A stretch of 64,000 nucleotides of DNA from Yoonia ponticola. Lineage in GTDB: Bacteria > Pseudomonadota > Alphaproteobacteria > Rhodobacterales > Rhodobacteraceae. Of the stretch, positions 4,250 to 41,612 are shown one piece after another. The stretch is from positions 1-64,000 of the forward strand of contig NZ_JACIJM010000014.1 of NCBI RefSeq assembly GCF_014199395.1. The letters are read 5' to 3'. A model generated the notes under the pieces. That model saw only the letters and a program-made list of their open reading frames with translations. It ran no database searches and was not told where the DNA came from. How positions within the stretch are numbered: position 1 is the first letter of the stretch; every line of letters begins with the position of its first letter. Position numbers and translations under genes: made by a program.

Positions 4250-4828
4250 CTAACGAGCCCCGGCAAGATCATAAAATCTCGAAAGAAATGCTTCCTTTGC
4301 TCTCTCAGGCGTTAGATTATTGACCCTAATGGGAGCAGGTTCGATACCTGCTTCTTTAGCCCAATCAGCGCACCCCTCTGCCATGATCTGCATTTGTTCG
4401 GCAGCTAAGACACGGAGGTCAGCCTGCTTTACAACGCTTCGATAATCCGGACGCAAATTGAAACGTTCTGAAATAGCATCCTCTATCGCCGCCTCTAACC
4501 GTTTGAACTCGGGAACCAACTGTTTGAGTGGGCGAGTGATATCGCCCATGAAGGCCTCTGCCGCGTCGTGCATCAAGGCTTCGAAGGCGTAGTCATCGAC
4601 CTGTTCACTAACGATCAAGCTGTGTTCAGCAACTGAGTAAAACTCCTTGCATTGCCCCGCATAACGGCAGACTTTCGATAGTCCATTAGCAATATCAAGA
4701 ATGTCAAAGTCACTCCCATGTGGATCAAGAAAGTCAAACCACTTGCCGCTCGCCAACATTATTGTTGGTCCCGTTGCAACACGGACCCCGACCACTGAGC
4801 TGATCATATTCATATTGTAAGCCCCCAT
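4250..4828 (-). CDS. HD-domain phosphohydrolase (DatZ/YfbR-like)
   Basis: A metal-dependent HD phosphohydrolase of about 192 residues, likely acting on a nucleotide. The ligands are intact: His69 in FYSVAEHS, His87-Asp88 in MHDAAEAFMGD, and Asp137 in VKQADLRV (numbering from the ATG at 4828). The layout, a short lead-in with GKWFDFLDP, then DIANGLSK, then VAEHS, then HDAAEAFMGDITRPLK, matches the broad group that includes YfbR-type 5'-nucleotidases and the phage dATPase DatZ. The start is uncertain: ATGs at 4828, 4813 and 4807 are all possible and a GTG lies further out. It is transcribed away from the kinase-synthetase operon across about 130 bp, which suggests shared control. Substrate is inferred, not visible. 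Confidence 0.75.
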   Translation of the reverse strand: MGAYNMNMISSVVGVRVATGPTIMLASGKWFDFLDPHGSDFDILDIANGLSKVCRYAGQCKEFYSVAEHSLIVSEQVDDYAFEALMHDAAEAFMGDITRPLKQLVPEFKRLEAAIEDAISERFNLRPDYRSVVKQADLRVLAAEQMQIMAEGCADWAKEAGIEPAPIRVNNLTPERAKEAFLSRFYDLAGAR

Positions 4829-4845
4829 AATCACTCTAAGGTTGA

Positions 4846-4960
4846 GCCACACAGCCTAGTGTTGTGTAGCACGTATTTCCTAATGCTGTGTTGCATTTTT
4901 TTGGAGAGCGCGCAACATTTAGTAGGACCGTGACCCTACGGCACGATATGGAGTATCATT
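4846..4960. promoter_or_regulatory. Divergent promoter region with direct repeats
   Basis: This gap separates the HD gene from the kinase-synthetase operon. Two near-identical 11-mers, GTTGTGTAGCA (4861-4871) and GCTGTGTTGCA (4885-4895), match at 9 of 11 positions and are 24 bp apart, about two helical turns. An inverted CACACAGC lies at 4848-4855. They look like operator half-sites. GGAG at 4950-4953 is the ribosome binding site for the TTG start at 4961. No regulator gene is adjacent. Confidence 0.4.
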
Positions 4961-6559
4961 TTGAAACATATTATAGTCACATCCGGGCCGATCGGCGTCG
5001 GAAAATCACTATTTTCAGCTGAAATTGAGAAGCGACCCAAGGTCAAGCGTGTTTCGACACGCAAGCATATTCTTGAAGCCACGAAATGTGAGAATGAGCG
5101 AGGTGCACTCCAGCGGGCAGGAGATAAACTCGACGTGGAGAGCGATGGAAAATGGGTCGCTGACGCCGTCGAGAACGCTATCAACAATGACAGTTCAGTC
5201 GAGATTTTCCTCGTAGATTCTGCAAGAATTGAGAGCCAGGTAAGCGAACTCCGGAACCGGTTTGGCGGGGCAGTCTTTCATATTCATTTGACCGCGGCAG
5301 ATGAAGAGCTGGAACGCCGCTACAAGCTACGAAAACAAGAGCTTAAAGAATATCCTACCTACCAAGAGGCTGCCAGTCATGGCACCGAGCGAGGCGTCAA
5401 GGATCTTGCCTCCGTTGCGGACTTGTGCCTCAATACTGATCATGTCGATGCTGAAAGCTTGGCAACGGCAGCATTGGCCTGGCGCGGACTTTCTTCGAAA
5501 CCATATGATCCTGAACAATTGGTCGATGTTATTGTCGGCGGCCAGTACGGTAGCGAAGGAAAAGGTAATGTCTGCGCCGCCATAGCAACAGATTACGCCG
5601 CGCTTGTTCGGATCGGCGGACCGAACGCTGGTCATAAAGTTGCAGTTCCGGAATACACTTTCGTTCAACTCCCTTCAGGCACCGGCTCGACTCCCGATGC
5701 AGAGATTATGATCGGTGCAGGTTCAACCATTTCATTGCCAAAGCTTCTCAAGGAGATTTTGGACCAAAAACTTGAAGGGGAACGCTTATCTATCGATCCG
5801 CGTGCGATGATCATCAATGACTGGGACCGTGAGATAGAGCAAAAGGGATTGCAAAAAATTTCGACTACTGGCCAAGGTGTTGGTGCCGCAAGTTCACGGA
5901 AAATCCTAAACCGTGACAACGAAACCTTTGGCCCGGCTGTAAGGCTGGCAGGTGAAGTTAGCGAACTGAAAGAATACGTAAGAAACGTTCGCCTACGGAT
6001 TGAAAAAATCCTTGAGAGAGGGGGACGCATTCTAATCGAGGGAACTCAGGGGACGATGCTGAGTATTCATCACGGGCTTTACCCTCACGTAACGTCTCGT
6101 GAGACATCAGTGGCTGGCTGCCTCTCTGAAGCAGGGATCGCCCCAGCTCGACTTAACCGCGCTATTATGGTCGTTCGAACTTACCCTATTAGAGTTGGTG
6201 GAACCTCTGGCTGGATTGGTCAAGAGATTGAGTTTGAAGAGCTAAGCAACCGATCCGGCATCCCTATAGACGAGCTACGAAAAACCGAGACGGGAAGTGT
6301 TTCCTATAAACAGCGCCGCGTCGCAGAATTTGACTGGGGCCAATTACGGCATTCAGTAATCCTGAACGGAGCTACTGAAATCGCCATAACATTCGCGGAT
6401 TACTTTGGCATTGAGAACCGCGCAGCAACGACCTACAGCGAGCTTAATGAAGGCACCCAAGACTTTGTCCAAAAAGTCGAGAGGGTTGCTGGTGTACCAG
6501 TTACGCTGATATCGAAGGCGTTCGCAATAGATTCTGTGATCAAGCGTGAGAATGTATAA
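4961..6559 (+). CDS. P-loop (deoxy)NMP kinase fused to PurZ-type adenylosuccinate synthetase
   Basis: A 532-residue two-domain enzyme. Residues 1-180 form a P-loop kinase domain with GPIGVGKS (9-16), VSTRKHIL and a lid-like charged region, resembling nucleoside monophosphate or dephospho-CoA kinases. Residues 187-532 form a compact adenylosuccinate synthetase of the short archaeal/phage PurZ size: GGQYGSEGKG (193-202), NAGHK (222-226), TTGQGVGAA (302-310), GTQGTML (361-367) and IRVGGTSG (410-417). Ser198 replaces the catalytic Asp of PurA's GDEGKG, the change known from phage PurZ, which uses dGMP to make the 2-aminoadenine precursor. The start is TTG, supported by GGAG seven bases upstream. 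The stop overlaps the next gene's ATG. Housekeeping PurA is not expected to carry this fusion. The exact purine substrate is inferred. Confidence 0.85.
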   Translation: MKHIIVTSGPIGVGKSLFSAEIEKRPKVKRVSTRKHILEATKCENERGALQRAGDKLDVESDGKWVADAVENAINNDSSVEIFLVDSARIESQVSELRNRFGGAVFHIHLTAADEELERRYKLRKQELKEYPTYQEAASHGTERGVKDLASVADLCLNTDHVDAESLATAALAWRGLSSKPYDPEQLVDVIVGGQYGSEGKGNVCAAIATDYAALVRIGGPNAGHKVAVPEYTFVQLPSGTGSTPDAEIMIGAGSTISLPKLLKEILDQKLEGERLSIDPRAMIINDWDREIEQKGLQKISTTGQGVGAASSRKILNRDNETFGPAVRLAGEVSELKEYVRNVRLRIEKILERGGRILIEGTQGTMLSIHHGLYPHVTSRETSVAGCLSEAGIAPARLNRAIMVVRTYPIRVGGTSGWIGQEIEFEELSNRSGIPIDELRKTETGSVSYKQRRVAEFDWGQLRHSVILNGATEIAITFADYFGIENRAATTYSELNEGTQDFVQKVERVAGVPVTLISKAFAIDSVIKRENV

Positions 6560-7251
6560 TGGACGAGCAAGATCTAGTTCTGCGGTATCCTCGCCTTTGG
6601 CATATGGCGCACCAAGGGGCATGGCCTGCAATTCGTGAGCGTGGGTTGATGAGTTCCACAGCCTTGCTGGAAGATTATGTTATTCAGGGAGATCAAAGAA
6701 CTCGCTTAGAGACCATGCGTCGACCTGAATCGGTTCACATCGCACATCCCGACCGTCTCGGAGCTATCATTCGCGATCAGAAACCAATGAGTGACGCAGC
6801 ATTGATCAAGTGTCTTGATGCTGGGCTAACTCCAAATCAATGGTACGCATTGCTAAATTCCCGAACATTCTTTTGGTTGTCGCGCGACAGAATCTGGCGA
6901 CTGTTGAAAGCACGGGCATATCGCAACCTACCGCAGACCGTTCTGACTATTGATACGGCCAGCTTGGTTGCTGCTCACAGGGAGCGGATTTGGCTAAGCC
7001 CGATCAATAGCGGTTCGACGCTGTTCAAGCCACAGCCTCGTGGGCTCGGCACATTCATGCGCATTGGAGATTTTCCGTTTGAAGAGCGATCTGTCACTCG
7101 CGCTGCAGCAAATAACGTTGTTGAATTGCTAGTTGAGCACTCGGTCCCCGACATGGCAGATCATGTGCTAGCCGTACATGAGGTAATGAATGATAGACTG
7201 CTTGGCGAGATCTGGCGATCTCCCGACGCTGATGACAACGACCACCCTTGA
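6559..7251 (+). CDS. DUF7002-like protein
   Basis: A 230-residue soluble protein whose ATG shares its A with the stop of the kinase-synthetase gene, so the two are translationally coupled. The opening LWHMAHQGAWPAIRERGLMS, the central RDQKPMSDAALIKCL and FFWLSRDRI, and the late LSPINSGST match my memory of the DUF7002 family. I know no proven activity for it. The 'HM...G.W..I...GL.S' beginning resembles folds of ADP-ribosyltransferase-like enzymes such as DarT-type proteins, but that is a weak analogy. Its coupling to a nucleotide enzyme suggests it acts in the same process, either as effector or as a nucleotide-handling partner. Confidence 0.65.
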   Translation: MDEQDLVLRYPRLWHMAHQGAWPAIRERGLMSSTALLEDYVIQGDQRTRLETMRRPESVHIAHPDRLGAIIRDQKPMSDAALIKCLDAGLTPNQWYALLNSRTFFWLSRDRIWRLLKARAYRNLPQTVLTIDTASLVAAHRERIWLSPINSGSTLFKPQPRGLGTFMRIGDFPFEERSVTRAAANNVVELLVEHSVPDMADHVLAVHEVMNDRLLGEIWRSPDADDNDHP

Positions 7252-7264
7252 TCTTTGCCGGAGT

Positions 7265-8620
7265 CTAAACCAGACGAGCGGGAGAGCCCTTCTTGCGCAG
7301 TAGATCAGCGATATGACTGGTCACACCGACATGACCATTGACTAAAACTCCACAGCCGTCAGGCAGCGAAGCTAGCAGGTTTCTGATGGCCTCGAGGCCA
7401 TCAGACGCACTAACTTCACGCCAATCGCTAGCTTCTCCAGGAACAATGACCGAGCCACTGCTTTGGGTGATACCTACATGCAGCTGTACGCACCAAACTT
7501 GACTCCCATCATGTACCCATTCAATCCGAACGGGACCGAGGACCTTGGAAAGCTTGCAGTGCAGTAAGGAGACGTCACGAGTAATCTCCTTCGGAAGGGC
7601 GGCGGGTTGATGTAGACCAAGCATTAGTTGGTCGCCCTCCCCTGGCACACCTTCAATTACGATTTCATCATCCTGCCCAGTAATTGCAGCACCACTCCAC
7701 GCTGCGACAACCGCATCTTGCTTAAGCAGCGACGCAATGGCGGAACCGGTGGGATCCTCTGTTGCCAATAGCGTAAAAGGATCGATCCACCCTTTCACGG
7801 TTGTAAATAGACCAGGTTGAGGTTCAAAAGGACAAGTACGTGTCCAAATCTCGCCAGAGCCTGTCGCGGTCCCAAATGAGAAAGGCGCAAGTTTTCTCGG
7901 AATTACGAGCGTTGAAGGAACTGGAAAGCCCAACCCATCTGCTACCAAAAGGCCGAATGCCTTGTCGCCTAAGTGTCGACTAAAGTTGTTTGGCCAACGT
8001 ATGGGCTGCTTAGCTGGGGAAACTACGTCTTCCTCGTGCTCCCACAAAAGTGTATGAGATCCTTTCCACCCACAAGCATTTGGATGGATGCTAAACTCTG
8101 TTCTCTCATTTGCCGACCCTTCAAGCTCGGGTCTGAAGCCGTACACTTTCTCTAAGAGGGCCATTCCCAGGTCGAAGGGCATCGACAGGACGCCGGGCTT
8201 CTCAACGCAGCGGGGCGTGTCGTCTGGACTAAATTCGATGATATCGCCTTGGACAACTCCGGATACACCGCCATCACTAACGTCAATCGTTTCATTGACG
8301 ATCGTGTGCAGTCCCTCAAGGCTCAAACGCTTTACCGCGGAGCAAGCGCTTTCGACAGACGTTAGCGCATATAGAAATTCACGGCTGCGTGGATCTTCAG
8401 GCAGGTAACTCCTAATATTTATCGTACCTGCGCTACTTCTATTGAAAAGTACCTCGATGGCGGCTTCGATGTCAGGAAATACCTCGTTAGCTTCGTGTCC
8501 GACTAGTCGAGAAAACGTCTGTTGAGGCGATCGATTCTGATCCGGTGCGAAGGACACAAATTGCGCTACGTTTCCGCGAGCAGCCAGTCTGTTAAGTATC
8601 TCATCTTTATGGATCGTCAT
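7265..8620 (-). CDS. PEP-synthase/ATP-grasp-like protein
   Basis: A 451-residue protein converging on the DUF7002-like gene with only about 13 bp between them. The stretch GPVRIEWVHDGSQVWCVQLH near residue 380 resembles the end of the ATP-grasp nucleotide-binding domain of pyruvate/phosphate dikinase and PEP synthase, where an IEWA...G.LW.LQ motif is common. The C-terminal part (GVLVNGHVGVTSHIADLLRKKG) may be a remnant of the swivelling domain. The ATG at 8620 is preferred because AGGTG lies about five bases upstream; an earlier in-frame start at 8659 lacks this. No His phosphocarrier motif was found. Base use matches the neighbouring nucleotide genes, so it probably travelled with them. Confidence 0.5.
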   Translation of the reverse strand: MTIHKDEILNRLAARGNVAQFVSFAPDQNRSPQQTFSRLVGHEANEVFPDIEAAIEVLFNRSSAGTINIRSYLPEDPRSREFLYALTSVESACSAVKRLSLEGLHTIVNETIDVSDGGVSGVVQGDIIEFSPDDTPRCVEKPGVLSMPFDLGMALLEKVYGFRPELEGSANERTEFSIHPNACGWKGSHTLLWEHEEDVVSPAKQPIRWPNNFSRHLGDKAFGLLVADGLGFPVPSTLVIPRKLAPFSFGTATGSGEIWTRTCPFEPQPGLFTTVKGWIDPFTLLATEDPTGSAIASLLKQDAVVAAWSGAAITGQDDEIVIEGVPGEGDQLMLGLHQPAALPKEITRDVSLLHCKLSKVLGPVRIEWVHDGSQVWCVQLHVGITQSSGSVIVPGEASDWREVSASDGLEAIRNLLASLPDGCGVLVNGHVGVTSHIADLLRKKGSPARLV

Positions 8621-8841
8621 CGAACACCTGTGTCTTGGAGCTTTTTGACGGAAAGCCAACTAGCGAGTCTTGTCGAAGCAGCCACCCGATTTGATGTGGA
8701 TTCGGCTTCCATTCATCCGTCTATCGACATAACCGGCGATCTTGAACCCTACACTTCAGTTCTAAGCGCTTTCAGGACCGCTTTTGAATTTGTTCTAAGC
8801 CTATCTGCGCTTCCAGCGAATGTCCGAACTCCACCCCGCAC

Positions 8842-8865
8842 GACAGACAGACAGACAGACAGACA
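8842..8865. repeat. Tetranucleotide tract (GACA)6
   Basis: Six perfect GACA units lie in the short gap between the divergent start of the PEP-synthase-like gene and the stop of the coupling-protein gene. Such tracts change length by slippage. It sits where the AT-richer cassette meets the GC-rich mobilization block, so it may mark a junction. I see no gene whose frame clearly depends on it. Confidence 0.9.
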
Positions 8866-38086: not shown

Positions 38087-38104
38087 AATTGTCCGCGGAC
38101 AATT
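38087..38104. promoter_or_regulatory. Candidate parS (palindrome 1)
   Basis: AATTGTCCGCGGACAATT is a perfect 18-bp palindrome touching the repC stop codon. Its 14-bp core recurs inside the 5' end of repC. RepB proteins of repABC plasmids bind replicon-specific palindromes as the partition site, and such sites are found before, within or after the operon, so this pair is a good parS candidate. Confidence 0.65.
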
Positions 38105-39206
38105 ACAGGTTCATACTTGGATAGCTCTGGGCCGTGGCGAGACGCCGTATTAACCTTTCGGGGCTAAAATCGGCACTCTTTGAACCAGTGGTGATTGATC
38201 GAAAGTATGCACCCACTGCTCGAATCCTGTCATGGAACTGCATAATCGCCCAAACTGTCGCTGCGGCTCTTAGTGCGCCGAGGCGTTTATGCGCTGCTTC
38301 ATAGCTTTGGCTGGTGATCCCAATCATTGGAGCAAGGGTTCGAGCGTGGCTAACGACATCATGCATCGTTTCTACTCTTTTCAACGAAAATTCGGCCGCG
38401 ACGGGGCAAGCGAATAACAACTCTGGGATGGAGATTGGAGCGTCTGAAGTTGGAGATAACTTTTCATTTTTTAGAGCAACCTTCTCTTTATCAATAAGTT
38501 CTTTATTTGACTTATGATGGTGTCGGACAAATTGACCGTCATTGGCGGTCATAGTTGTTGTTAAACTAGAACTCGGATCATTCGTAGACTCGGCTGCGAT
38601 TTCAGAGATTGCCAGCTCTGAAAGGATCCGTTCACAGTCTTCGAGGGATAACTTACGACGTAGGATACGGAAGGTGTTGAGGGCCCTTTCGTCGTTTGGG
38701 TTTTCGGCTAGACACGCGTTCGCCGCTGCGCGGATTTTGGTGCGCAGGTAATCAACTTGTTCTCGCTCTTGCATCACCTCTGCTGCCAATGCCGCAAGTT
38801 CATGCAGACGATCAAAGAGTGGCGATAGGTCAAATCCGAACCGCAACGCTTTGCCTTCATGGCTGCTGCGTTTTGTGAAGCGTTTTCTATTTGCGCTGTC
38901 GTGGCGAACAAGCAGCCCGATCTCTTGCAACGTTGCTGCGTGGCGCCGGATCGTCCGGTCAGAGATGCCATTGCGTCTAAATGTGAGTGTTGCGTTCGAT
39001 GCAAACACTGTGTGGTGGTTGCGCTTAGGTGCGAGGCACGAAAGCATTGCGTCTAGGGTTGAAATCACAGAAGCGCTGAGACCCAAGCGGGGGGCCGCAT
39101 TTCGCAGTGTCGCAACAATGATGTGGCGCTCTGGAATGGAGTTGTCCGCGGACAATAATTCACCGGTCCGCAACCCGGAGGGTGCAGTTGCTTGTTTAAA
39201 TGCCAT
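38103..39206 (-). CDS. repC: Replication initiator RepC
   Basis: The 367-residue initiator of a repABC plasmid. The N-terminal half has the typical winged-helix part: LGLSASVISTLDAMLSCLAP, TVFASNATLTFRRNGISDRTIRRHAATL and GLLVRHDSANRKRF. The C-terminal half contains MIGITSQSYEAAHKRLGALRAAATVWAIMQ and ends near FRSITTGSKSADFSPERLIRRL, also typical. In repABC plasmids oriV lies within repC. The ATG at 39206 starts MAFKQATAPSGLR. It follows repB after a 226-bp gap that should carry the regulatory antisense RNA. Confidence 0.93.
   Translation of the reverse strand: MAFKQATAPSGLRTGELLSADNSIPERHIIVATLRNAAPRLGLSASVISTLDAMLSCLAPKRNHHTVFASNATLTFRRNGISDRTIRRHAATLQEIGLLVRHDSANRKRFTKRSSHEGKALRFGFDLSPLFDRLHELAALAAEVMQEREQVDYLRTKIRAAANACLAENPNDERALNTFRILRRKLSLEDCERILSELAISEIAAESTNDPSSSLTTTMTANDGQFVRHHHKSNKELIDKEKVALKNEKLSPTSDAPISIPELLFACPVAAEFSLKRVETMHDVVSHARTLAPMIGITSQSYEAAHKRLGALRAAATVWAIMQFHDRIRAVGAYFRSITTGSKSADFSPERLIRRLATAQSYPSMNL
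39142..39155. promoter_or_regulatory. Candidate parS (palindrome 2) inside repC
   Basis: TTGTCCGCGGACAA, the same 14-bp core as at 38089-38102, lies about 17-21 codons into repC (residues LSADN). The codons it uses are ordinary, yet the perfect palindrome shared with the site after repC is unlikely by chance. Confidence 0.6.
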
Positions 39207-39432
39207 GTATTTTTCACGACAACCTGATGTGAAAGGCGCCAATAACCCTGAAAATCAGAAAAAAGGCCGCAAATCTTCAACAACCGAATCGGTTGTTGTT
39301 GACTGGCGCGGAGAAGCTGTTAAATCTGAAAGTGCAAAGAACAGATCGGGCTCTCCTTGGGAAACCTTGGGGGGCTCTTTCTTTTTAGGCTGTTGGTGTG
39401 CTCCTTTTTTGGTGTTTCTGCTCGGTCGATAA
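39207..39432 (+). ncRNA. repB-repC gap, likely antisense RNA region
   Basis: In repABC plasmids the repB-repC gap encodes a small counter-transcribed RNA that limits RepC translation. Here a strong stem, CAACAACCG (39278-39286) with CGGTTGTTG (39290-39298), and a C/T-rich run near 39400-39430 fit that region. The exact RNA ends and its promoter could not be fixed; strand is inferred from being opposite to repC. Confidence 0.4.
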
Positions 39433-40410
39433 TCAGTCAGGCTTTCGCTCTGCCTGCCATGCCTCATAGAGGCGTGTAAGCTCCGCTTCTGCGTTGTTAC
39501 GCATCCACTGAGCAAATTCTGGGGCTTCAGCCTTCGACAGCTTAACCGTCAAAGCACGGGCCGTTTCTTTCACCTCTGCTATGGCAGTCCCATCACTAAG
39601 CTTGATGGCGAGGGTAGGGGAGGGAACGGGTTTACTAGTTGCCTTAGGTTTCAGCATCTGACTAACGGCGCCACAGATCATGCTAAAGCGGTCGTCGGGA
39701 CTTTTAGTCGCATTAAGCTGAAGTGCTGAGGTAACCTGTTCAAGATCGATGCTGTTGTTACGCGACTGGTCCGCAAGTTCTTCCCAGCGTCTTCGTCCAA
39801 TGCCATGAGCGGATCCAATCTGCTCAATGACTGACTTTGGAATGGACCGCGCTACTTTGGTCATTCTAGACAACATTGGTTTGTCCACCGCGAGGGCATC
39901 AAGAATGATGCCCTGTTCGTATCCACTTGAGGAAAGTTCAGCCGCGAACAGCGCTTTTTCAATGAAGCTGGGATCCAAACGCTGGGTATTTTCTTGCCCC
40001 TGGGCGAGGATTGCTTCCTCGTCAGAAAGAGACCTGACAAGTGCTTTCGCAGGGATACCGAGCGATCTCAAAGCCCGCAGTCTACGGCGACCATAGACGA
40101 TCTTATAGTGTCCGGGTTTGTCCGCAATCGGGCGCACCATGATAGGCACTTGTTGGCCGTGAGCCTTAATGCTTTCAGCTAGCTTTACAACATCAGCATC
40201 GCTGAAAGAGAGCCGGTCCTTAGGGCCATTTTCTTCTATGACATCAACCGAGATTTCTCTCACAGCGTTGCTCGCCACATCCTTTAAAGTGGACTTCACG
40301 CCACTCATCGCCCCAGTATTAGGAAAACGTACCTTCTGCTCACTGGCTGGAACCGCCGAGTTGTCTGTGTCAGGTGGGGGAGGAGGCTGGAATAGGTTTC
40401 GACGGGCCAT
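39433..40410 (-). CDS. repB: Plasmid partition protein RepB (ParB)
   Basis: A 325-residue ParB-family protein that should bind the plasmid parS. The N-terminal nuclease-like fold shows DADVVKLAESIKAHGQQVPIMVRP, then YKIVYGRRRLRALRSLGIPAKALVR and EEAILAQGQENTQRLDPSFIEKALFA, followed by the helix-turn-helix KPMLSRMTKVARSIPKSVIEQIG. The ATG shares its A with the repA stop (TAATG), so the two are coupled. Confidence 0.94.
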   Translation of the reverse strand: MARRNLFQPPPPPDTDNSAVPASEQKVRFPNTGAMSGVKSTLKDVASNAVREISVDVIEENGPKDRLSFSDADVVKLAESIKAHGQQVPIMVRPIADKPGHYKIVYGRRRLRALRSLGIPAKALVRSLSDEEAILAQGQENTQRLDPSFIEKALFAAELSSSGYEQGIILDALAVDKPMLSRMTKVARSIPKSVIEQIGSAHGIGRRRWEELADQSRNNSIDLEQVTSALQLNATKSPDDRFSMICGAVSQMLKPKATSKPVPSPTLAIKLSDGTAIAEVKETARALTVKLSKAEAPEFAQWMRNNAEAELTRLYEAWQAERKPD

Positions 40411-41612
40411 TAGTCAGTTTCCCTTCCCCAAGCTTGCTGTATTGTGTTTTCGAATTCATCAGCGACACCATTAACTGACTCCAATATCCGGGTTAGAGTC
40501 TTTTTCACGACCTGAGAGGGGTCCAATTCATAGATGGTTTGCTGCGTCATCCCAGCGTCTGAGATTGCGGTGGATTTGAGCATTGGTGTAGTCAACACTT
40601 GATCCAAGAGAATAGACCTCAAAAAACCTGCCATTTGTGATTGTGGCACGTCGGTTGGCTCATATCGAGCAATCAAGAACTTAAGGAAATTCCAGTCAAT
40701 AGGTCCGGCTGCCTCCTCAAGGGTCTGGACAGTTTCTCCAGCCATTTCAAGGAATTGCGCCATTGAAGCGACATCCAACATACTGGGAACGACTGTGATC
40801 AGAAGGCCTGTAGACGCCAACAAAGCGGTCATGGTTGTAAAGCCAAGCTGAGGCGGGCAATCGATGATGACAAGATCGTAGTTTGCCTCAATCTCGTCGA
40901 TCGCGATTGCAAGACGTTGAGTAAATGGCGGATCAACCTTGTGCTGAAGCGCGTAGGCTGTTTCGGTCTCATACTCTGATAACAACAGGCCGGCGGGGGC
41001 GAGATCAAGATTGTGAAAGTAAGTCTTTCGGATAATTTGGCTCAGCGGCACCGGGTCTTCGTACTTTAACGCGTCATAAACCGTACCGCTTTCCGCGAAC
41101 TCAATCTCCGGACGGTATCCGAACATAGTAGTCAAGCTTGCCTGTGGGTCCATGTCGATTGCAAGTACGCGATAGCCTCGCAAAGCGTAGCGTTGGGCCA
41201 AGTGGATGGCGCTGGTTGTCTTGCTAGAGCCGCCCTTAAAGTTGACAATAGAAATAATCTGAAGGGCATCGTTCTCTCGCCGACCGGGAAGATATGTTTC
41301 ACCGTTCCGACCAGTCTTCGCCATCACATGGCGAATTTGGTTGATCTCTTGGGCTGTGTAGAGCCTGCGACCTCTGGAATCAGTCTCTACATCGGGAAAA
41401 TCGCCTTCCTGATGCCGCGTCCGAAGGTTCGACATGCTGATCCCGGTCAGCTCTGAAACCTCTGCAGGATGAAATTTACGCAGCGTCTTTCTGCTATCGG
41501 GCTGAAAGCTATTGCGCATATGATTGTTAAGCGCCTCTGACAGGCGGGCAGCGTTCGACGCAATAGATGCGGCGATAGAGTTGGTTTGCGCGATATCTGC
41601 GTTTGAATTCAT
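40410..41612 (-). CDS. repA: Plasmid partition ATPase RepA (ParA)
   Basis: A 400-residue ParA-type ATPase, first gene of repABC; it partitions the plasmid and represses the operon. An N-terminal DNA-binding part (FHPAEVSELTGISMSNLRTR) precedes the deviant Walker A, IVNFKGGSSKTTSAIHLA (about 116-133). Walker A' and B follow in AIDMDPQASLTTMFG and DLVIIDCPPQLGFTT. Length and motif order are those of RepA in repABC rather than short plasmid ParA. Confidence 0.95.
   Translation of the reverse strand: MNSNADIAQTNSIAASIASNAARLSEALNNHMRNSFQPDSRKTLRKFHPAEVSELTGISMSNLRTRHQEGDFPDVETDSRGRRLYTAQEINQIRHVMAKTGRNGETYLPGRRENDALQIISIVNFKGGSSKTTSAIHLAQRYALRGYRVLAIDMDPQASLTTMFGYRPEIEFAESGTVYDALKYEDPVPLSQIIRKTYFHNLDLAPAGLLLSEYETETAYALQHKVDPPFTQRLAIAIDEIEANYDLVIIDCPPQLGFTTMTALLASTGLLITVVPSMLDVASMAQFLEMAGETVQTLEEAAGPIDWNFLKFLIARYEPTDVPQSQMAGFLRSILLDQVLTTPMLKSTAISDAGMTQQTIYELDPSQVVKKTLTRILESVNGVADEFENTIQQAWGRETD

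Follow-up and report, generated by a model that had tools for sequence, protein, structure and literature searches.

A kinase–PurZ fusion coupled to a DarT-like DUF7002 protein: a recurring bacterial cassette with a possible role against phages

Introduction

2-Aminoadenine in DNA is known from phages, where base modification is regarded as a way to escape host restriction. The phage Z-cluster for this base comprises PurZ, MazZ and DatZ, as in cyanophage S-2L and vibriophage phiVC8. According to two reports, PurZ is told from the ordinary adenylosuccinate synthetase PurA by a serine (or glycine) replacing the catalytic Asp13 and PF12917 is the Pfam family used for DatZ (PMC12884076), and the MazZ of S-2L is a (d)GTP-specific enzyme with a MazG-HisE fold (PMC8342488). 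Here we describe a four-gene cassette in a stretch of 64,000 nucleotides from Yoonia ponticola (contig NZ_JACIJM010000014.1, positions 1–64,000; called the window below). Its central gene codes for a nucleoside monophosphate (NMP) kinase fused to a PurZ-type synthetase and is coupled to a gene of the family DUF7002, a predicted ADP-ribosyltransferase (ART) with a DarT-like fold. We suggest, with a probability of about one half, that the cassette is a mobile anti-phage system which joins a maker of 2-aminoadenine nucleotides to a DarT-like ART effector. In the openly licensed literature, including the accessible parts of PMC12884076, PMC8342488, PMC10789625, PMC8883491, PMC13092281 and PMC9503650, we found no description of such a cassette, in line with the original prediction, which knew of no system of this composition. 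The features of the cassette, with the open reading frames (ORFs) and matches on which they are based, are:

4250–4852, minus strand: HD-domain phosphohydrolase of the YfbR/DatZ Pfam family PF12917, type B accessory gene (ORF and Pfam)
4853–4960: divergent intergenic region of 108 bp between the HD and fusion genes (ORF limits)
4961–6559, plus strand: kinase–PurZ fusion, 532 aa, TTG start (open ORF)
4961–5500, plus strand: N-terminal P-loop NMP-kinase domain of the fusion, adenylate-kinase-like (AAA_18, profile matches)
5522–6550, plus strand: C-terminal PurZ-type adenylosuccinate synthetase domain of the fusion, residues 188–530 (Adenylsucc_synt, PHROG, PDB)
5552–5554, plus strand: AGC codon of Ser198, at the place of the PurA catalytic Asp13 (alignment)
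6559–7251, plus strand: DUF7002 protein, predicted DarT-like ADP-ribosyltransferase fold (Pfam and fold prediction)
7265–8620, minus strand: PPDK/RPH-like (phosphoenolpyruvate (PEP)-synthase-like) dikinase with N-terminal part, ATP-grasp and C-terminal swivelling His domain (fold prediction)

Results

Recurrence of the cassette

The original prediction, made by a model from the letters of the window, had read a set of four genes at 4250–8620, richer in AT than the DNA on both sides, with a PurZ-type domain fused to an NMP kinase, a DatZ-like HD protein, a DUF7002-like protein and a PEP-synthase-like protein. Four open ORFs are indeed present and the G+C content over 4–9 kb is 0.49–0.53, compared to 0.58–0.62 on the left and 0.62–0.66 on the right; the domain readings also hold, that of the HD protein as a link to the YfbR/DatZ family PF12917, as detailed below. 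The gene order is HD (minus), fusion (plus), DUF7002 (plus) and dikinase (minus), and the stop codon of the fusion overlaps with the start codon of DUF7002 in the sequence TAATG.

The best 80 of 283 relatives in genome_contigs together with the window gave a set of 81 loci, in which partners were searched within 6 kb of the fusion, using profiles derived from clusters of these loci. DUF7002 was found in 79 of the 81 loci, and the two misses (L040, L049) end at contig borders. In 68 of the 79 it lies directly downstream of the fusion on the same strand, and in one homologue (P0083) synthetase and DUF7002 are parts of a single protein. By their record titles the 80 loci belong to Alpha-, Beta-, Gamma- and Deltaproteobacteria, Myxococcaceae, Acidobacteria, Actinomycetota, Planctomycetes, Verrucomicrobia, Synergistaceae, Gemmatimonadetes, archaea and others.

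The further partners divide the loci into two types. In type A (44/81) a protein composed of an IrrE peptidase and a macrodomain is encoded, directly upstream of the fusion in 42 of the 44 loci. In type B the dikinase (30/81) and the HD protein (29/81) are found, both in one alphaproteobacterial sub-lineage, and in none of the 81 loci does IrrE-macrodomain occur together with dikinase or HD. A quick unrooted tree places all seven type B rows together in a single clade (support 100) nested within the type A rows; the swap therefore looks like one event, and the exclusivity does not amount to many independent observations. The expectation that HD, DUF7002 and dikinase genes all recur with the fusion is thus upheld for DUF7002 and not for the other two, without which homologues of the fusion do occur. 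We dropped the idea that HD and dikinase belong to the core, as both mark one sub-lineage.

The distribution is patchy. The fusion was found in 0 of 35 other genomes of the genus, and in eight plasmid records a match covers at least 80% of the fusion. A search for DUF7002 gave 7 of 289 genomes of the class and 6 of 398 of the phylum; the own genome is in both sets, leaving 11 others. Close copies lie inside cassettes in five of these (G065 with a broken fusion, G086, G160, G403, G436), and in G507 the match is partial and below the cut-off. The cassette is, with near certainty, a recurring accessory system.

Some single loci deserve mention. The type A locus of G065 (C106, L195) has its fusion gene in pieces, and DUF7002 and the IrrE-macrodomain gene, at the contig end, remain. 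At L191 (4341–7492) a divergent DUF7002 gene is flanked on one side by a D-serine-dehydratase/alanine-racemase-like gene and on the other by the gene of an Abi_C protein. An archaeal metagenome-assembled genome (Gagatemarchaeum, L068 region) carries two convergent kinase–PurZ fusions less than 1 kb apart (L211/L216; G689 C92, 70219–71817 on the plus and 72596–74182 on the minus strand).

The kinase–PurZ fusion protein

The C-terminal part of the fusion matches Adenylsucc_synt (Pfam, 1.4e-52) and the N-terminal part AAA_18 (6.3e-6; 27.1 bits, slightly below the cut-off of 29.4). Residues 1–180 give profile matches to the AdkA-like structure 3lw7 (3e-12) and to adenylate kinase 1 (2e-6), and G14, K15, D86, R120 and R124 of the kinase domain are invariant in 24 sequences. 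The synthetase domain matches phrog_1211, described as 2-aminooxy adenylosuccinate synthetase, with 7e-60 as well as the PDB structures 5k7x (5e-48) and PurZ 7odx (1e-24).

A word-based search that scored 8000 candidates yielded 5067 homologues with E ≤ 0.001; lower-ranked matches may include plain PurA, and residues were counted in the best 120, which are the closest relatives of the window fusion. All of these 120 carry a Ser at the place of the PurA catalytic Asp (Ser198 in the window), whereas Asp is present in 25 of 25 ordinary PurA rows; a Pro precedes the motif NAGH in 119 of the 120.

Using the pocket of S-2L PurZ, as given in PMC8342488, as a guide, the window fusion has Tyr21, Ser23, Pro48 and Phe306 in S-2L numbering. 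The comparison covered 32 fusions, 59 unfused viral rows and 25 rows of ordinary PurA; the row VIR_L224, a mislabelled copy of PURA_L224, was excluded. Ser23 (32/32, 59/59 and 0/25, respectively) and Pro48 (32/32, 57/59 and 1/25) set fusions and viral rows apart from PurA, although part of their conservation in the retrieved loci is built in, since the search patterns R[VI]GGPNAG(H) and GSEGKGN[IV] contain these residues. Tyr or Phe is found at position 21 in 28/32, 57/59 and 0/25, Phe306 in 31/32, 27/59 and 0/25 and Asp at position 308 in 32/32, 56/59 and 25/25. The loci were obtained with patterns from alignment A1; patterns from the window fusion alone were too narrow and had no matches in genome_contigs and viral_contigs. 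In the fusions there is no apparent conservation at the column of S-2L Arg146; we treat this as a one-column misalignment because alignment A5 pairs that column with a fusion Arg that is invariant in A1 (R318).

Among 15 carrier genomes searched, 12 contain a clear separate ordinary PurA; therefore the fusion is not the housekeeping PurA. In the other three, G690 (L221) has an unusual ORF of 649 aa with a partial PurA match, and no PurA was found in G692 and G699. The host genome of the window (3.73 Mb, 30 contigs) also contains a separate ordinary PurA. To judge from these sequence comparisons PurZ-type chemistry of the fusion is likely, and we consider it probable that the protein uses a guanine nucleotide as substrate and yields a 2-amino product.

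The DUF7002 protein

The protein encoded at 6559–7251 belongs to DUF7002 (PF22531, 3e-72), a family of which we found no mention in the openly licensed literature. Its predicted fold is that of an ADP-ribosyltransferase and is closest to DarT, the nearest structure being DarT1 (8baq) with a structure-based identity of 14–16%. There is a good chance, in our estimate, that DUF7002 is an active ART. The original prediction had taken the set for a candidate in nucleotide modification or defence; the predicted DarT-like ART had been missed, so the set is not nucleotide metabolism only.

Pathway and accessory genes

Eight of the 80 loci are titled Actinomycetota (L046, L053, L059, L062, L065, L071, L081, L083). 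Six of them, all but L065 and L081, encode a HisE/MazG-type protein 0.5–1.7 kb upstream on the same strand; these six are adjacent and alike, and four of them were scanned with Pfam (PRA-PH, 1.6e-19 to 3.5e-17). Given the fold and specificity of S-2L MazZ we see here a direct parallel. Five of the eight (not L053, L065 and L081) also carry a divergent PurB-like lyase gene (Lyase_1, 7e-37 to 5e-38 in the three scanned). With the lyase of L046 as query the best match in the other four genomes is the cassette lyase (39–45% identity), and all five lyase-bearing genomes have another PurB-like gene elsewhere (28–34% identity to the L046 lyase). HisE/MazG-type protein and PurB-like lyase are predicted to complete the route from GTP to 2-aminoadenine nucleotide in these Actinomycetota loci. 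No MazG-type protein was found by Pfam among the four window cassette proteins; the original remark that no MazG-like dGTPase was seen thus holds for the window cassette and does not extend to six of its eight Actinomycetota relatives, and we dropped the argument that its absence speaks against Z metabolism. A PurB-like gene also lies within 6 kb in three type B loci of Bradyrhizobium (L024, L025, L028), possibly by chance, and in L064 a MazG-type gene is found 2.5 kb from the fusion on the other strand.

The HD protein of type B matches the YfbR-like family PF12917, the one used for DatZ, narrowly above the cut-off (5.6e-6; 26.6 bits, cut-off 25.9), and PDB structure 2gz4 (6e-26, family profile). 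The match to the dNMP phosphatase phrog_318 (4e-65) is far better than that to the dATP triphosphohydrolase phrog_7076 (5e-7). H65, H83-D84 and D133 are invariant in 15 homologues.

For the dikinase there are no matches in Pfam, NCBIfam, PHROG and PADLOC and no sequence relative in Pfam or PDB. Its predicted fold is PPDK/RPH-like with an ATP-grasp and a C-terminal swivelling His domain. Foldseek alone ranks generic ATP-grasp ligases first (5e-5) and RPH and PPDK at 15–16; the PPDK/RPH reading draws on the VIA comparison together with the C-terminal His motif. No PEP/pyruvate barrel was recognised, and about 205 N-terminal residues, presumably too few for such a barrel, are barely covered by the fold comparison. 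Rifampin phosphotransferase (RPH) phosphorylates an antibiotic, and for this reason a small-molecule phosphotransferase is the likeliest function of the modelled dikinase.

In type A the M78/IrrE peptidase was recognised by Pfam in 23 of 23 proteins scanned and the joined macrodomain in 8 of 23; the latter also gives profile matches to PDB 2afc, 2fg1, 5e3b and CHD1L. The HD and dikinase proteins of the window have no Pfam match to macrodomain or NADAR, the N-terminus of the dikinase being barely tested.

Defence surroundings

We took up to three genes per side from 26 loci drawn randomly from 50 eligible long ones (148 genes). Eight carrier genomes supplied the control, which consisted of 145 genes (3 of 148 left out) on 26 randomly chosen stretches. 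At a threshold of 1e-10 the neighbour proteins matched 164 PADLOC families and the controls 21, which bears out the suspected defence-rich neighbourhood; the models are redundant, the counts are of families without the names of the matching proteins, 25 of the 164 families were listed and the control genomes are not matched to the 26 loci. Among the 25 listed are PycC (1e-190), PDC-S19 (2e-168), JetA (1e-96), capP (6e-69, matched by 3 of the 148 proteins), PD-Lambda-2_B (3e-67), PifA (2e-61) and a 2TM effector (5e-61); in the control one family (mad3) is below 1e-50. The four window proteins themselves match no model of PADLOC-DB 2.0.0 (2023) except for a weak match of the HD protein to PDC-M68B (E 0.0084). 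In our estimate a role of the cassette in phage defence is on balance likely.

Viral records

From 78 viral loci we examined 11, namely those with the kinase part (L084–L092, L102) and the fragment L093. The full fusion occurs with no cassette partners found in seven records (L085, L086, L087, L089, L090, L092, L102), and the fragment is likewise without partners; L084 and L088 carry DUF7002 and IrrE-macrodomain, and L091 carries DUF7002. DNA polymerase A is encoded in five of the seven, and as its family matches also in 14 of 14 control genomes it marks a replication module only. A MazG-like domain is found in three of the seven and in 2 of 14 control genomes. In L089 the fusion is closely preceded by a DnaB-type helicase gene and followed by a primase gene (Pfam); ORF comparison and PHROG counts give this arrangement for L102 as well. 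Matches were obtained in 218 of 50,697 named phage records, none of them over 80% of the fusion, so that the fused form was not seen there.

Two protein layouts in these records stand out. L092 (2677–3381, starting right after the fusion) and L085 (2144–2929) encode a protein with an N-terminal DUF4406 or DUF1937 match and a MazG-like part, a layout reminiscent of the nucleotide enzymes with two domains that Z phages have (PMC12884076). The DNA polymerase A of L089 (10510–13500; DNA_pol_A 2e-60) has an N-terminal domain of the uracil-DNA-glycosylase superfamily (UDG 5e-27), and L102 (13624–16587) has the same layout as judged by the similarity of the ORF start.

Replicon setting

To the left of the cassette TniB is encoded at 1.4–2.3 kb (Pfam 5e-61), together with a TniA-like integrase and a resolvase read by eye; to the right VirD4-like and relaxase-like ORFs were also read by eye. 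The repABC replication and partition genes of a plasmid are found at 38103–41612. By TniB and repABC the cassette lies next to a transposon and is part of a plasmid-like replicon. The dikinase ORF extends over 7265–8659 (minus) from its first start codon and over 7265–8620 from the ATG fitting the homologues. A short GACA tandem run lies at 8842–8865, between the dikinase ORF start and the VirD4-like gene.

Discussion

We suggest the following working scheme. The kinase–PurZ fusion would condense GMP or dGMP with aspartate, the lyase PurB, encoded by the cassette itself in most Actinomycetota loci and by the host elsewhere, would release 2-aminoadenine monophosphate, and the adenylate-kinase-like domain would convert the monophosphate to the diphosphate. 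The coupled DarT-like DUF7002 protein would then be the effector, modifying a nucleic-acid base or a nucleotide, and accessory modules might tune or reverse its action: IrrE-macrodomain in type A, the YfbR/DatZ-like phosphohydrolase and the RPH/PPDK-like dikinase in type B. A more daring form of this scheme, which we hold to be unlikely, is mark-and-kill immunity. In this case 2-aminoadenine nucleotides made at the time of infection would enter newly made phage DNA and not the resting chromosome, the DarT-like transferase would ADP-ribosylate the marked DNA via the added 2-amino group and so stop phage replication, and macrodomain or type B accessory genes would protect the host. Bacteria would then have turned the Z-base chemistry of the phages into a label of self and non-self.

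Several observations weigh against the proposed anti-phage system. The fusion reaches 186.9 bits with the PurZ model NF038379 of NCBIfam, below the cut-off of 300. In a quick unrooted tree of 117 rows, which does not include known archaeal PurZ, the 32 fusions form a clade of their own (SH-aLRT 96) that includes neither phage PurZ nor PurA; the fusion is thus not found inside the phage/archaeal PurZ clade. Position 278, which we take to be the PurA arginine near the ribose 2′-OH, is Arg in 20, Lys in 8, Asn in 3 and Val in 1 of the 32 fusions, and with Arg or Lys in 28 of 32 the substrate may be ribo or deoxy. The TM-scores of DUF7002 with DarT are moderate (0.46/0.50) and no significant sequence match between them was obtained (E 0.52). 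Divergent or partial DUF7002 genes occur in three genomes without fusion (G077, G178, G186), and the 12 kb read at the DUF7002-like genes of G597 and G621 showed no fusion; in G077, G186 and G621 DUF7002 was not recovered by the ORF caller and the surroundings were not read closely. L065 and L081 have neither MazG nor lyase, and the same is true for the window cassette. The ubiquity of DNA polymerase A and the limits of the PADLOC comparison given above point in the same direction.

Ordinary purine salvage or a duplicated PurA set with no special role would account for the PurA homology and for the housekeeping-type folds of HD protein and kinase; however, the Ser in place of the catalytic Asp throughout the 120 closest homologues, the separate PurA of most carrier genomes, the patchy distribution and the constant DUF7002 partner make this very improbable. 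Toxin–antitoxin addiction, in which a DUF7002 toxin is restrained or repaired by the fusion and the accessory genes and stabilises plasmids and islands, is suggested by the overlapping stop and start codons, the DarT-like fold, the plasmid setting and a macrodomain partner in type A as in DarTG. Yet Pfam recognises neither macrodomain nor NADAR in type B, the flanks are rich in defence families, and we know of no precedent for a kinase–PurZ enzyme as antitoxin; we regard this explanation as improbable.

Two further explanations stay closer to defence. The modified nucleotide could act as an antimetabolite that poisons phage replication or transcription, with DUF7002 as a second, independent effector. 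The NMP kinase in the fusion would drive formation of the diphosphate, and viral contigs with replication genes carry the fusion without DUF7002; but an independent effector would not need to be present in 79 of 81 genome loci and phages seem to employ this enzyme to their own ends, which renders this explanation quite unlikely. Alternatively, the fusion might produce upon infection a modified purine nucleotide as second messenger, sensed by macrodomain-IrrE or another partner, with DUF7002 switched on downstream. The joining of a macrodomain to an IrrE/M78 metallopeptidase has the layout of a sensor protease, HD and dikinase genes could destroy or make the nucleotide, and the capP family is found among the neighbours. 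On the other side, no sensor domain common to types A and B was recognised, and the HisE/MazG and lyase genes of Actinomycetota resemble a metabolic pathway rather than a signal synthase. We find the messenger explanation, with 2-amino-adenylosuccinate or a 2-aminoadenine nucleotide as the molecule, unlikely.

If the proposed anti-phage system is real, the union of PurZ-type chemistry with a DarT-like ART in a widespread bacterial cassette would constitute a new class of immunity, DUF7002 (PF22531) would gain a testable function, and it would become a question which side used 2-aminoadenine chemistry first. From the fusion one would further expect 2-aminoadenine phages that have gone unrecognised, which would be the ones with kinase–PurZ near DNA polymerase A.

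Comparison with known systems

With the phage Z-cluster the cassette shares the PurZ-type synthetase with Ser for Asp, in type B an HD protein of the Pfam family used for DatZ (PMC12884076), in six of eight Actinomycetota loci the HisE/MazG-type pyrophosphohydrolase and, in five of seven viral records with the fusion, DNA polymerase A. It differs in that the synthetase is fused to an NMP kinase and forms a separate clade, in its location in bacterial genomes with an ART-fold protein and defence-rich flanks, and in the PurB-like paralog of five of eight Actinomycetota loci.

The predicted fold of DUF7002 and the macrodomain protein of type A recall DarTG. However, the constant partner here is a nucleotide-modifying fusion, the macrodomain of type A is fused to an IrrE metallopeptidase, an eraser was not recognised in type B and the identity to DarT1 is low (14–16%). 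The dikinase resembles PPDK, PEP synthase and rifampin phosphotransferase in its ATP-grasp and C-terminal phospho-His-type domain; it differs in that no PEP/pyruvate barrel was recognised and in its N-terminal part of about 205 residues.

Prokaryotic viperins counter phages by producing an altered nucleotide, and a nucleotide kinase is available to them too. The cassette is comparable to them in logic, whereas chemistry and proteins are unrelated, and it may represent an unrecognised anti-viral means.

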